DNA of 64,000 bases from positions 186,001 through 250,000 of the forward strand of contig NZ_VRKO01000005.1 in assembly GCF_012271765.1 (NCBI RefSeq), given 5' to 3'. The notes beneath the pieces are model-generated. The model did no database searches. It saw only the letters and a program-made list of their open reading frames with translations, and was not told the origin of the DNA. This document shows positions 29,334-33,353 of the stretch, piece by piece. The translations under genes were made by a program, and so were the position numbers. Within the stretch, counting starts at the first letter, position 1. The number at the start of each line of letters is the position of its first letter. Origin of the DNA: Erwinia rhapontici. Its GTDB lineage: Bacteria; Pseudomonadota; Gammaproteobacteria; Enterobacterales; Enterobacteriaceae.

Positions 29334-29414
29334 TGTCAGTTGACCCTGGAGTTGAAGTTAAGCTGTTGAAAAAGAGAATTAATTTCCCAGTTTATTGAAA
29401 GGTGATCGCCGGGG

Positions 29415-29438
29415 GGCAGTTTTTTTAAACTGCCTTTT
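29415..29438 (+). terminator. terminator after parE
   Basis: GGCAGTTT...AAACTGCC forms a stem followed by TTTT, about 80 bases past parE. It marks the border of the nudF-parE unit and the accessory block. The rest of the 308-base gap (29439-29641) is the regulated leader of the DJ-1 family gene, with two operators. Confidence 0.8.
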
Positions 29439-29517
29439 AAGCAAGGATGCTTTTGCCTCACGCTGAATGATCTGTCCCCAGGATGAAAGACAATCTGAAG
29501 ATGTTTACTATTATTTG

Positions 29518-29532
29518 TAGACGACTGGTCTA
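29518..29532. promoter_or_regulatory. NemR-type operator 1
   Basis: TAGACGACTGGTCTA is an inverted repeat with TAGAC/GTCTA arms, read on the minus strand as TAGACC-AGTC-GTCTA, closely resembling the E. coli NemR box. Its right arm overlaps a -10-like TCTAAT (29529-29534). Confidence 0.75.
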
Positions 29533-29590
29533 ATTGCTGTTAGCTTAACGACATGACTTGAGCAGATGAAGCCTTGTTACAACTACCATC

Positions 29591-29605
29591 TAGACGACTG
29601 GTCTA
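29591..29605. promoter_or_regulatory. NemR-type operator 2
   Basis: An identical 15-bp copy 73 bases downstream of operator 1, again running into TCTAAT (29602-29607), and 36 bases before the DJ-1 family start codon. The spacing of about seven helical turns would allow same-face binding. Confidence 0.75.
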
Positions 29606-29641
29606 ATTCAAGCATTTCAAACTGACAGGCAGGAGATTAAG

Positions 29642-30322
29642 ATGAAGATTCTTATGGTGTTAACCTCACACGACCAGCTGGGCAATACCGGACGTAAAAC
29701 TGGTTTCTGGCTTGAAGAGCTGGCAGCTCCCTACTACGCATTTAAAGATGCGGGCGCAGAAATTACGCTGGCCTCGCCAAAGGGCGGCAACCCGCCGTTA
29801 GATGCAAAAAGTAATGAGCCGGATTTTCAGACTGAACAGACCCACCGCTTTGAGGCCGATGCAGAAGCAACTGCCCAGCTTGCCGCCACGGTGCGTCTGG
29901 ACAGCATTTCGCAAGACGGGTACGACGCGGTCTTTTATCCGGGCGGCCATGGCCCGCTGTGGGATCTGGCCGAAGATAAAAACTCTATCGCGCTGATTGA
30001 AGCCTTCCTCGCGGCAAACAAGCCTGTGGCACTGGTCTGCCATGCACCGGGCGTCCTTCGCCACGTTAAAACACCCGAAGGGCAACCGCTGGTGGCAGGC
30101 CGCAAAGTCACCGGCTTTACCAATAGTGAAGAGGACGCAGTGGGCCTGACTGACGTGGTGCCTTTCCTGGTGGAAGATGAATTGATTGCCAAAGGTGGAA
30201 TTTATTCCAAAGGGGCGGACTGGAGTTCGTATGTCGTCAGCGATGGTCTGCTGATCACCGGACAAAATCCAACTTCATCAGCGGCAACGGCGGAACAACT
30301 GATCCGACAGCTGACCGAATAA
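29642..30322 (+). CDS. type 1 glutamine amidotransferase-like (DJ-1/PfpI superfamily) protein
   Basis: 226 residues. Glu25 in FWLEELAAPYY, PGGHGPLWDL near residue 100, and the nucleophile elbow LVCHAPGV with Cys133-His134 match the Hsp31/DJ-1 branch, whose members act as glutathione-independent glyoxalases, deglycases or chaperones. It follows two NemR-type operators and precedes the nemR-like gene, pointing to a role in handling methylglyoxal or other electrophiles (inference). The AGGAG Shine-Dalgarno lies seven bases upstream of the ATG. The exact activity cannot be read from sequence. Confidence 0.88.
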   Translation: MKILMVLTSHDQLGNTGRKTGFWLEELAAPYYAFKDAGAEITLASPKGGNPPLDAKSNEPDFQTEQTHRFEADAEATAQLAATVRLDSISQDGYDAVFYPGGHGPLWDLAEDKNSIALIEAFLAANKPVALVCHAPGVLRHVKTPEGQPLVAGRKVTGFTNSEEDAVGLTDVVPFLVEDELIAKGGIYSKGADWSSYVVSDGLLITGQNPTSSAATAEQLIRQLTE

Positions 30323-30334
30323 ACGGTGCTTACC

Positions 30335-30360
30335 TGGGGCAGCGATATTTAGCTGCCCCA
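30335..30360. terminator. hairpin after the DJ-1 family gene
   Basis: TGGGGCAGC and GCTGCCCCA form a perfect 9-bp stem with an 8-nt AU-rich loop directly before operator 3. The regulator gene therefore probably has its own promoter as well. Confidence 0.75.
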
Positions 30361-30362
30361 TA

Positions 30363-30377
30363 TAGACGACTGGTCTA
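30363..30377. promoter_or_regulatory. NemR-type operator 3
   Basis: A third exact copy of TAGACGACTGGTCTA, 21 bases before the start codon of the TetR-family gene. This placement implies direct autorepression by blocking transcription start. Confidence 0.78.
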
Positions 30378-30398
30378 GTTTTTTGGTAACGTTAACCT

Positions 30399-31004
30399 AT
30401 GACGACTTCAACTCAACATCATAGCAACGACATCCGCGACCATATCCTCGCCACAGGCCAACGTATCATGGCAGGCAAGGGTTTTTCGGCTGTCGGATTA
30501 AACGAAATACTCACTGATGCGGGTGTGCCCAAAGGTTCGTTTTATCACTACTTCAGCTCGAAAGAAGCATTTGGGGTAGCGATGCTGGCTCGTTATTTTG
30601 ATGATTATCTGGCAGAAATTGATAGCACCCTGAGCCAGCCTGGTCTCAATATGGCGCAGCGGCTGATGAACTACTGGCGGCAATGGCGTGAATCACAATC
30701 GTTTTCGCATTGTCAGGGTAAGTGCCTTGCCGTGAAACTCGGGGCTGAAGTGGCCGATCTTTCTGACACTATGCGCGTGACACTTGAGTCAGGAACTTCA
30801 GGAATCATATCGCGCCTTGCGGAAGCGTTAGAGGCCGGTGTCGCCGAGGGTTCTCTGACTATCGATGATCATCCCACCAACGTGGCGGAAAACCTTTATC
30901 AGCTTTGGTTGGGTGCCAGCGTGATGGTCAAAATTGTGCGCAATACAGGCCCGTTTGATTCAGCCATGCGCCTGACGCAGAAAATTATTCGCATCGCTCC
31001 TTAA
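30399..31004 (+). CDS. NemR-like TetR/AcrR family redox-sensing repressor
   Basis: 201 residues. The N-terminal helix-turn-helix reads LNEILTDAGVPKGSFYHYFSSKEAFGVAML (about residues 34-63), nearly the same as E. coli NemR. The ligand domain has HCQGKCLAVKLGAEVADLS, with Cys109 in the place of NemR Cys106 (GCLTVKLSAEV), plus an extra Cys105. NemR senses N-ethylmaleimide, quinones, methylglyoxal and HOCl through cysteine modification. No nemA or gloA is adjacent here; the DJ-1 family gene takes that place. It could be a paralogue with different targets. Confidence 0.85.
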   Translation: MTTSTQHHSNDIRDHILATGQRIMAGKGFSAVGLNEILTDAGVPKGSFYHYFSSKEAFGVAMLARYFDDYLAEIDSTLSQPGLNMAQRLMNYWRQWRESQSFSHCQGKCLAVKLGAEVADLSDTMRVTLESGTSGIISRLAEALEAGVAEGSLTIDDHPTNVAENLYQLWLGASVMVKIVRNTGPFDSAMRLTQKIIRIAP

Positions 31005-31166
31005 CGAGGATTAACGGATGCGGCCTTGTGACAGAGGGTTATGTTGAGCATTCACAGCCTGTTGGCGCACCATTTTGATAGCTAAAACTGCTTTTAAGAA
31101 AGAAAGAGTAAGGGGAATGTTGATTGAGGGTGTACTATACGCGTCCAAACAACACAGGAAATATTT

Positions 31167-31334
31167 ATGGCTTATAATCAAAAACAACCTAAATCCAACG
31201 GCTTCCTCATCTCCATCGCATGTCCTAAATGCAGTAAAAATTCCGACCACAGTGCTCCAAGAGTTCATAAGAACAAAAATCTTCTTTGCCCATTCTGCAG
31301 TGTTCTTTTTACCCCTTCTGAAAGTAAAATCTAA
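31167..31334 (+). CDS. small zinc-ribbon protein, 55 residues
   Basis: The ORF translates as MAYNQKQPKSNGFLIS, IACPKCSKNSDHSAPRVHKN and KNLLCPFCSVLFTPSESKI. AGGAA lies six bases before the ATG. The CPKC and CPFC knuckles, 20 residues apart, with a Lys/His-rich linker form a zinc ribbon. The pattern resembles the small enterobacterial YnfU-type zinc proteins, but I cannot confirm that family here. Codon use is more A-rich than the backbone, suggesting acquisition. The 162 bases upstream hold a possible -10 (TACTAT preceded by TG, near 31131-31138). No operon partner is evident, and the LysR gene lies downstream. Confidence 0.7.
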   Translation: MAYNQKQPKSNGFLISIACPKCSKNSDHSAPRVHKNKNLLCPFCSVLFTPSESKI

Positions 31335-31478
31335 TCATCTGCTTTGCTGACGCTTGATCGGATTGTTTCCGTATTCACGCCCGGTAATGCCGTAAACGCA
31401 TAAAAATGTCAACCTGCGCCAGGACTCGTGATGATTCTGTTAGTATTGTGAGTGTCATCTTTCCAGCAGGTTGAACTA

Positions 31479-32381
31479 TTGAAAATCACCCTTGAAGAGC
31501 TTCGTGCGTGGGTTGTTGTGGTCGATACCGGTTCGATCACTGCCGCCGCAGAGCAGCTTAACCAGACCACGTCCGGTATCAGCCGCGCCCTCAGTCGGCT
31601 GGAAAGCAAGCTGCAAACCACGTTGCTGCACCGCACCACTCGCCGTATCGCACTGACTGAAGAAGGGCAGATCTTTCTTGAGCACGCGCGGCAGATCATT
31701 CGTTCAGTCGAAACCGCCGAAGAGCAGATCGCTCAGCGGCGTGAGATCCCGTCTGGCCGGCTGCGCGTCAATGCCGCCACGCCGTTTATGCTGCATGTGA
31801 TTGTGCCGCTGATGCCGGAGTTTTCACGCCGTTATCCGCTGATCCAGCTGGAGCTGAATACTGATGAAGTGGTGATCGATCTGCTGGAACAGCAGACGGA
31901 TATCGCGATCCGTATTGGCGAGCTGCGCGATTCCACGATGCATGCTCGCGCGCTGGGGTGCAGCAGGCTGCGGCTGATGGCCAGCCCGGGCTATCTGGAG
32001 GAGCATGGTGTACCGCAAAGCGTGGCCGATATGGTCGAGAACCATCGGTTACTGGGCTTCTGCAATCTTGACCAGCACAATATCTGGCCGGTATGGCGGG
32101 TGGAGGGGGAGCTTTTACAGATTAAACCAACGGTGATGGCATCAAGTGGGGAAACGCTGCGCCAGCTGGCGGTGAACGGCATGGGTATTACCCGCGTGTC
32201 GGATTTTCTCAGCCGTGAGGATCTGGCTTCCGGTCGGCTGGTGCCGGTTCTGGAGGCTGAAACGCGTGAGATGCACCACCCGATTCATGCTGTGTACTAC
32301 CGTAACAGCACGCTGTCGGCGCGGATCAGCTGTTTCCTGGATTTTCTCAGTGAGCAGTTTGCCAGCAAGACGTTGTTATAA
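31479..32381 (+). CDS. LysR family transcriptional regulator
   Basis: About 300 residues with the LysR winged helix-turn-helix at the N terminus (LEELRAWVVVVDTGSITAAAEQLNQTTSGISRALSRLE) and a periplasmic-binding-like effector domain (GRLRVNAATPFMLHVIVPLMPEF). The start is uncertain: TTG at 31479 (KITLEELRAW, AGG ten bases upstream) gives a typical short N terminus, while GTG at 31452 adds nine residues without a visible ribosome site. It converges on ygiN-mdaB. Its target is unknown; the neighbouring quinone genes are candidates. Confidence 0.85.
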   Translation: MKITLEELRAWVVVVDTGSITAAAEQLNQTTSGISRALSRLESKLQTTLLHRTTRRIALTEEGQIFLEHARQIIRSVETAEEQIAQRREIPSGRLRVNAATPFMLHVIVPLMPEFSRRYPLIQLELNTDEVVIDLLEQQTDIAIRIGELRDSTMHARALGCSRLRLMASPGYLEEHGVPQSVADMVENHRLLGFCNLDQHNIWPVWRVEGELLQIKPTVMASSGETLRQLAVNGMGITRVSDFLSREDLASGRLVPVLEAETREMHHPIHAVYYRNSTLSARISCFLDFLSEQFASKTLL

Positions 32382-32428: not shown

Positions 32429-32737
32429 TTACAGTGCCGGTTCCAGCACAAAGATCTTCACATCCACCACATCGTTTTTAATCGCGGTACGGTGTGCTTC
32501 CATATGGGCAGCCTGCTGATGCTGCTCAAGATGGCGCAGTGAGTCCCAGTGCTCCACCATAAAGATCGAGTCCGGTGAGTACTGCTTCCACGGTACCTGG
32601 GCTTTATGGTCAATCAGCGCCTGATAACTGCCGCAGCCTTCCTCATCCAGAACGACAGGCGTCAGCGTTTCTATCGCTTGTAAAACGGCAGTACGTCGGC
32701 CTGGCTTGATACAAATTTCAGCGATCACGGTCAGCAT
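32429..32737 (-). CDS. ygiN: quinol monooxygenase, ABM-domain
   Basis: 102 residues (E. coli YgiN 104). The dimeric ferredoxin-like ABM fold begins MLTVIAEICIKPG, with DEEGCGSYQALID and PDSIFMVEHWDSLRHLEQHQQAAHM, the conserved substrate-pocket segments. E. coli YgiN oxidises menadiol and works with MdaB in a quinone redox cycle. It follows mdaB by 34 bases, as in E. coli. Confidence 0.93.
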   Translation of the reverse strand: MLTVIAEICIKPGRRTAVLQAIETLTPVVLDEEGCGSYQALIDHKAQVPWKQYSPDSIFMVEHWDSLRHLEQHQQAAHMEAHRTAIKNDVVDVKIFVLEPAL

Positions 32738-32771
32738 ACTGTTTCCTTTTACTCGAGGTGTGTACCTTTAG

Positions 32772-33353
32772 TTAAGCAAAGATCGCGTTCAGATGAGTCC
32801 GATAGCGTGCAATATCGCCGTCAATATCCGGCTGTTTGATCACATCGTTGCAGATAAAGGTCGGTAAACCGTCCATACCCAGGAACTGGTTTGCTTTGTG
32901 GAAGTGCAGATACACGCCATCAACGCCCACGCCTTCAAAGAACTGTTCCGGATCGGTGAACGCCTGTAACGGGGCGTTCCAGGTCAGCGACAGCATATAG
33001 GTTTTACCCTGTAACAGGCCGCCAGAGCCATATTTTTTGGCTGCATCAGAGCGGGTACGGCCATCGCTGGCGTACAGTTTGCCGTGGCCTTCGGTAAATA
33101 CTTCATCGATATATTTTTTTAGCGTCCACGGCTCGCCCATCCACCAGCCTGGCATCTGGTAAATAATGGTATCGGCAGCGAGGTATTTTTCGATTTCTTC
33201 AGCGACTACGTAACCGTCGTCGAGTACGGTAACATCGACCTGATGACCCGCGTCACGCAGGAAGCTGGCGGCCACGTTAGTCAGCGTGTGGTTCAGTTCG
33301 CCTTTTGAATGAGCGAAGGCTTTCCCGGCATCAATAATCAGAATCTGGCTCAT
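32772..33353 (-). CDS. mdaB: NADPH:quinone reductase, modulator of drug activity B
   Basis: 193 residues, same length as E. coli MdaB. Flavodoxin-like NAD(P)H dehydrogenase fold: IIDAGKAFAHSKGELNHTL holds the FAD phosphate contacts, and YQMPGWWMGEPWTLKKYIDEVFTEGHGKLY surrounds the flavin ring. It catalyses two-electron quinone reduction, avoiding semiquinones. It forms an operon with ygiN and is divergent from a pheC-like gene. In E. coli these genes lie next to qseBC and parC; here qseBC is absent from the window. Confidence 0.95.
   Translation of the reverse strand: MSQILIIDAGKAFAHSKGELNHTLTNVAASFLRDAGHQVDVTVLDDGYVVAEEIEKYLAADTIIYQMPGWWMGEPWTLKKYIDEVFTEGHGKLYASDGRTRSDAAKKYGSGGLLQGKTYMLSLTWNAPLQAFTDPEQFFEGVGVDGVYLHFHKANQFLGMDGLPTFICNDVIKQPDIDGDIARYRTHLNAIFA

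Follow-up and report, generated by a model that had tools for sequence, protein, structure and literature searches.

A putative thiol-switched TetR-family repressor and a glyoxalase III-like DJ-1 gene preceded by a shared candidate operator in a mobile-looking module after parE in Erwinia rhapontici

In a 64,000-nucleotide stretch of the Erwinia rhapontici genome (hereafter, the window), a DJ-1/PfpI-family gene and a gene for a TetR-family regulator stand after parE with copies of one short sequence before both, which raises the question of whether the regulator controls its neighbor and itself, what it would respond to, and how it is related to NemR. A first-pass annotation had read the locus as a NemR-type redox switch rewired from nemA and gloA to the DJ-1 gene. 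The reading that we consider likely is of an autoregulated, thiol-switched repressor of a glyoxalase III-like enzyme, the two genes forming a mobile module of the NemR/CurR kind after parE whose operators are shared with two paralogous loci of the same genome (Table 1).

Table 1. Positions in the window of the two genes, the operator copies, and the insertion.
Feature	Position	Strand	Details
Operator copy 1, TAGACGACTGGTCTAAT	29518..29534	+	exact match; 15-mer ends 109 nt before DJ-1 start codon
Operator copy 2, TAGACGACTGGTCTAAT	29591..29607	+	exact match; 15-mer ends 36 nt before DJ-1 start codon
DJ-1/PfpI-family gene	29642..30322	+	226 aa, open ORF; Pfam DJ-1_PfpI; glyoxalase III-like (Hsp31/Glx3 type)
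Operator copy 3, TAGACGACTGGTCTAGT	30363..30379	+	exact match; 15-mer ends 21 nt before TetR start codon
TetR-family repressor gene	30399..31004	+	201 aa, open ORF; Pfam TetR_N and TetR_C_13
Approximate insertion between parE and YnfU-family ORF	29334..31100	+	absent in L167 and L168; limits inexact

Three exact copies of the 15-mer TAGACGACTGGTCTA had been claimed for this locus, two before the DJ-1 gene and one before the TetR gene, and all three were recovered on the forward strand of the window (29518-29532, 29591-29605, and 30363-30377). Every other match in the window at up to three mismatches was one of these places read on the opposite strand, and 100 shuffles of the window produced a mean of 0.65 matches, with none reaching six. 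A search of the whole genome (5,239,070 bases in 19 contigs), as had been proposed with the annotation, returned the exact 15-mer three times, every copy at this locus and none elsewhere, and the reversed pattern returned zero. The arms alone are not specific, since TAGACN5GTCTA at up to one mismatch was found at 17 places in the genome versus 184 for its backward control. The description of the element as a 15-bp inverted repeat holds for the arms TAGAC and GTCTA but not for the asymmetric core GACTG that they flank, and the conserved element is longer, a 17-mer. Given that copy 3 stands 21 nt before its start codon, tetR appears to have an operator of its own. We considered whether the pair of copies upstream of DJ-1, 73 bp apart, is kept in helical phase and rejected the idea, as the spacing varies in relatives (41 at L060 and 131 at L061).

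The conservation of this arrangement was examined by scanning a genome collection with the TetR protein and keeping the best 80 of 588 relatives, loci that were picked by TetR similarity alone; the scan was seeded by six peptides including KGSFYHYF, so that the near-invariance of the recognition helix among the 80 is partly built in. These best 80 span Alpha-, Beta-, and Gammaproteobacteria (including Enterobacterales) to Streptomyces, the closest being from Pantoea sp. SOD02 (86%) and Rahnella bonaserana (84%). In 75 of the best 80, the 160 nt before tetR contain an operator with at most one arm mismatch, and, of 75 relatives' sites lying no more than 40 nt from tetR, 57 end 20-22 nt before it. 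The misses were L077, L118, L119, L132, and L139, the first of which is probably an artifact of start-codon choice, since its site sits 29 nt before its match. Within the same best 80 of 588, DJ-1 was the commonest partner, lying within 2.6 kb of TetR in 55, and a DJ-1 match above 200 bits was found at 56, of which 31 have a site no more than 260 nt upstream of DJ-1; in some of the other 25 the DJ-1 gene sits behind another gene, and the rest are unexplained. Further partners were CurA-like and OYE (ene-reductase) genes, with several TetR-CurA-DJ-1 rows. The identities of TetR and DJ-1 were correlated (Spearman 0.68 over 57 loci including the window, the pairs not being independent), and explaining the presence of DJ-1 on the tree takes no fewer than 10 changes, which means that the linkage arose or was lost repeatedly rather than being passed down in one inheritance. 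The pair belongs to a set common to many bacteria, and the recurrence of the operator upstream of tetR strongly implies direct regulation of the DJ-1 gene, as first annotated, together with autoregulation.

Over the 75 tetR sites and 35 forward DJ-1 sites of the relatives, the consensus is TAGACGACYGGTCTAnT, with the T at +2 in 71/75 and 35/35, respectively; the +2 T of copy 2 in the window matches all 35 of the latter. Orientation was scored on a pool of 80 TetR, 27 family, 29 phylum, and three own loci from which repeated contexts had been dropped, and the operator points toward the following gene at 186 of the 192 sites that could be oriented and assigned, which share ancestry and are not independent events. 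Four of the remaining sites point the opposite way, two fit the second gene of a divergent pair, 10 were unorientable, and 35 had no reference gene start within 260 nt. At three loci where DJ-1 is flipped (L080, L082, and L138), there is a separate site for each gene, oriented with that gene. The asymmetry is real, as the +2 T is kept in 181 of the 186 sites versus 96 of 186 for an A at the mirror position. Perhaps a promoter element is involved: TCTAnT inside the operator may serve as a -10, or, at tetR, TAGACG may serve as a -35 with TAnnnT 17 bp further. A sigma-70 scan gave one weak match, at 29487-29514, 3 nt before copy 1, and shuffles averaged 1.6. In the literature searched, which included few subscription papers and is weak evidence on that account, we found neither a match to the operator core sequence nor a description of a DJ-1-TetR regulator pair or of a directional operator.

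Of 295 family genomes, 20 contained the exact 15-mer, with 32 sites listed against seven for the backward pattern. Loci were read for 27 of the 29 sites in other genomes, and 25 of these 27 contain a relative of TetR, DJ-1, CurA, OYE, or NemRA-GloA; at the other two, L052 and L053, an exact operator copy (1501-1515) stands in 3 kb of sequence without a family gene. In L052 the neighboring ORFs are mnmA-like and sigma-factor-like, and both loci may represent either chance or a new target. Across the phylum, the exact 17-mer was found in 45 of 398 genomes, our own included, and the 72 sites listed against zero for the backward pattern make it specific enough to list candidate regulon members elsewhere. 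All 29 of the sites in other genomes that were read back, from the 72, have a TetR/NemR, DJ-1, CurA-like, or OYE relative, two of them with weak matches of 81 bits (L180 and L187). In E. coli K-12, a partial CAGACGACCGG precedes nemA, and TAGACN5GTCTA and TAGACN4GTCTA at up to two mismatches had zero matches in the nemR locus. In none of 5,426 E. coli genomes did a single place cover 80% of the pair at the search sensitivity used; partial matches occurred in 4,278 of them, which among the 10 matches listed were an 88-base stretch of nemR. We regard the gene pair with its sites as real, specific, and probably functional.

The regulator is a member of its family by Pfam scores above the gathering thresholds (TetR_N, 46.7 versus 24 bits; TetR_C_13, 45.3 versus 27 bits), and its translation has only two cysteines, at positions 105 and 109. 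In alignment, Cys109 corresponds to NemR Cys106 and Lys178 to NemR Lys175, and NemR cysteines 21, 98, 116, 149, and 153 are replaced by Met, Ser, Ala, Ser, and Asp. The likeness to NemR noted in the first-pass annotation therefore stands for the recognition-helix segment (VPKGSFYHYF, near-identical to that of NemR) and for the Cys106/Lys175 pair but fails at Cys21 and Cys116. Reviews link Cys106 to the sensing of reactive chlorine, and Cys21 with Cys116 to that of electrophiles (PMC5297802, PMC7464077), the latter two through an electrophile-driven disulfide (PMC5297802); in a study of a NemR-based sensor, the response to hypohalous acid needed the Cys106 position and a Lys175 sulfenamide was not seen, which puts the Cys106-Lys175 sulfenamide in dispute (PMC8748444). 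As both Cys21 and Cys116 are absent, there is no sequence support for methylglyoxal sensing through them, and the retention of the Cys106/Lys175 equivalents predicts a chlorine- or N-ethylmaleimide-responsive switch rather than a glyoxal-specific one. Natural relatives with the Cys106 position and without Cys21/Cys116 also make testable which NemR cysteine senses what.

Related systems differ in what they answer. CurR of Pseudomonas aeruginosa is a hypochlorite and N-ethylmaleimide sensor according to the title of its report, and the CurR-curA pair (PA2196-PA2197) resembles ours in setting a repressor beside a detoxification enzyme and in the top NCBIfam model, whereas the partner in the window is DJ-1 and the genome's own curA-like gene is on contig C5 beside a second DJ-1. 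A study of P. aeruginosa PA14 reports that a "NemR homologue" was not induced by HOCl or HOSCN and that its mutant had no consistent phenotype, contrary to an earlier study cited there (PMC7950407). AltR of Pantoea ananatis is a NemR-related TetR repressor with one essential cysteine that represses its own promoter, but its operator is different (CAATCTAC N6 GTAGATTG) and it answers thiosulfinates, not N-ethylmaleimide or diamide (PMC13178969). The inducer is thus not readable from family membership, because AltR answers thiosulfinates but not N-ethylmaleimide. In the mechanism that we propose, a TetR homodimer would bind TAGACGACYGGTCTAnT at its own promoter and at the two copies before DJ-1; Cys109 would be modified by a thiol-reactive oxidant or electrophile, for which hypochlorous acid and N-ethylmaleimide-like compounds are the likeliest candidates; and the modified repressor would leave the DNA, so that the DJ-1 enzyme and the repressor would both be made.

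TetR proteins usually bind ligands, and the repressor might instead answer a small ligand such as an enone or aldehyde in its TetR pocket, with the cysteine playing a structural role and DJ-1 being one of several enzymes. The presence of ene-reductase and curcumin-reductase-like genes among the partners of relatives is in keeping with such a ligand, as is the rank of AcuR as the second NCBIfam model, but all of the best 80 of 588 TetR relatives keep the counterparts of Cys106 and Lys175, in contrast to the remaining NemR cysteines, which drift, and NemR and CurR are described as thiol-switched; we regard a pocket ligand as rather unlikely. The DJ-1 protein matched PDB sequences 4p5p, 1u9c, and 4lru, and its Cys133-His134 and Glu164, which do not vary among the 58 aligned sequences, align with the Cys-His-Glu of Candida albicans Glx3 (PDB 4lru), presumably residues 136/137/168 in Glx3 numbering. 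The Cys-His-acid catalytic residues of the Hsp31/Glx3 type therefore appear to be in place, and most Hsp-type members act as glyoxalase III (PMC5691139). The likeness to the glyoxalase III enzymes of this type (C. albicans Glx3 and yeast YDR533c) lies in these aligned positions, whereas in sequence the window protein is closer to 4p5p, which is named just as a family protein, and 1u9c, named APC35852, and its glyoxalase III role is a prediction. Because it carries the Glx3-type Cys-His-Glu, the protein likely removes reactive carbonyls, by glyoxalase III activity or a close variant of it. The physiological substrate of the family is disputed, and the inducer of a dedicated repressor would point to the purpose of the DJ-1 enzyme.

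The genome contains three NemR-like loci: that of the window, one on contig C4, and one on contig C13. On C4, a TetR gene is followed by genes for an OYE that shares 71% identity with NemA and for a GloA (83% identity), and the ORF after gloA is read as rnt, which would make the order that of E. coli. On C13, a TetR 45% identical to that of the window accompanies an OYE and an SDR (L018, 5773-8310, reverse strand), a row with two near-identical 15-bp boxes that we take to be reminiscent of a nieR-type operon. A scan of the genome for TAGACGACYGGTCTANT at up to two mismatches returned six places, all at the window, nemRA-gloA, and tetR-OYE-SDR loci. Since the operators at these loci are near-identical, the three repressors probably overlap in binding, with cross-talk. 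It is even conceivable that a paralogue, the genome's own NemR or the C13 TetR, does most of the binding to the window sites in the cell, and that the window TetR would merely repeat its control. The recognition helices are nearly identical; the boxes ahead of the C13 tetR and OYE genes, TAGACGACTGGTCAG and TAGACGACTGGTCAA, respectively, share 14 and 13 of 15 bases with the window box; five of the 29 phylum loci (L188-L191 and L194) are nemRA-gloA operons with a 15-bp box before nemA and a 16-bp box before nemR; and three DJ-1 loci (L046-L048) have the box with no family TetR match in the 3 kb read. Against these points, TetR, box, and DJ-1 occur together in most of the 80 relatives (best 80 of 588), and we judge control mainly by a paralogue unlikely, the window TetR remaining in our reading the dedicated repressor of its neighbor. 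A wider regulon of 20 sites in the genome at three mismatches to the 17-mer was dropped, as the backward control, with all matches at up to three mismatches pooled, gave 62 forward and 70 reverse. One further site, C13:165846-165860 (G000, L021), has both arms exact and a different core, TAGACAGGCTGTCTA. The second DJ-1, 66% identical to that of the window, lies on C5 (L020, 7580-9825, reverse strand) between the curA-like gene and an ORF that we read as ybhB, and no operator was seen by eye in 221 bases before this row.

The placement of the window TetR bears on the claim that NemR itself had been rewired. Its top NCBIfam model was CurR (NF058643) at 247.8 bits, under the curated cut-off of 300; the same model was best for the genome's own NemR (186.9 bits) and the C13 TetR (223.7 bits), so a statement that the protein is closest to CurR by this score was dropped and the score is read as subfamily placement only. 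Neither the curA neighbor of CurR nor the nemA and gloA neighbors of NemR adjoin it, DJ-1 being the adjoining gene. A PDB search ranked 3rd3 (210 bits) and 4l62 (209 bits), which we take to be PA2196, above NemR 4yze (161). In a quick tree, midpoint-rooted, the window TetR groups with L060-L062 (99%) among mostly DJ-1-linked rows, and a branch with 98% SH-aLRT support parts E. coli NemR, the C4 NemR, and L134, which is long-branched, from the other 81 rows. That the window TetR is the NemR orthologue, its target switched from nemA/gloA to DJ-1 and its sensing of electrophiles (methylglyoxal, quinone) intact, is very improbable: its 42% identity to E. coli NemR over 193 aa, its near-identical recognition helix, the 16-bp box TAGACCGACTGGTCTA before E. 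coli nemR, which is the window box plus one C with a spacer of six, and the inability of the NCBIfam library to separate the two speak for it, but a better NemR, 56% identical to that of E. coli, stands with nemA and gloA on C4, the branch just described separates NemR from the window's group, Cys21 and Cys116 are missing, and within the window's own branch TetR is usually partnered with DJ-1. The annotation was right that neither nemA nor gloA is adjacent, but with both retained beside nemR on C4 the DJ-1 gene does not replace them, and the pair is an addition to nemRA-gloA. The best reading of the sequence comparisons is of a separate paralogue of NemR, a further branch of the NemR/CurR kind that is like E. 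coli NemR in family, Cys106, Lys175, and operator but differs in its cysteines, its 15-bp rather than 16-bp box, and its partner.

What stands out most as new is how widely TetR and DJ-1 are linked, that the operator has a direction, and that three loci overlap in one genome. Taken further, and as a tentative possibility only, TAGACGACYGGTCTAnT may serve a single ancient detoxification network that crosses phyla, with DJ-1 as its usual output and E. coli nemRA-gloA as only one branch; the asymmetric core and the +2 T would set the direction of the operator relative to transcription, perhaps with a -10 or -35 built in, repressor and RNA polymerase would then compete for the same bases, and paralogous repressors with different cysteine sets would share operators in an electrophile-response circuit.

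The pair looks like a mobile module. All 37 genus genomes examined match the 4-kb stretch, and among nine genus-relative loci read, parE is followed directly by the LysR gene or the YnfU ORF in five (L167, L168, L169, L172, and L173), is about 1 kb from LysR in L170, and is not nearby in L171, L174, and L175. In L167 and L168, which have the order parE-ynfU-lysR, the pair is absent, and the distance from the parE stop to the YnfU ORF is about 180 nt in L167 and about 1,830 nt in the window. No other genus genome had the pair after parE among the matches listed, and several genomes have it elsewhere (e.g., G297, G298, G301, and G314). Similar DNA was found on 471 plasmid records, mostly as partial matches, with a place covering 80% in one record; a close TetR was present on 70 plasmid records, and one such plasmid region was read. 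Near the insertion, at 32429-33353 on the reverse strand, are an ABM-domain gene and a Flavodoxin_2 gene, presumably ygiN- and mdaB-like, with no operator there at up to three mismatches. Between the pair and the LysR gene, at 31167-31334 on the forward strand, a 55-aa YnfU-family zinc-binding protein is encoded (Pfam YnfU, 51.4 bits; NCBIfam, 63.9 bits), an ORF that is also readable after parE in L167. The LysR gene itself (31452-32381, forward strand), for which the best NCBIfam model was YafC at 380.2 bits against a cut-off of 470, stands close behind parE in five of the nine genus relatives read.
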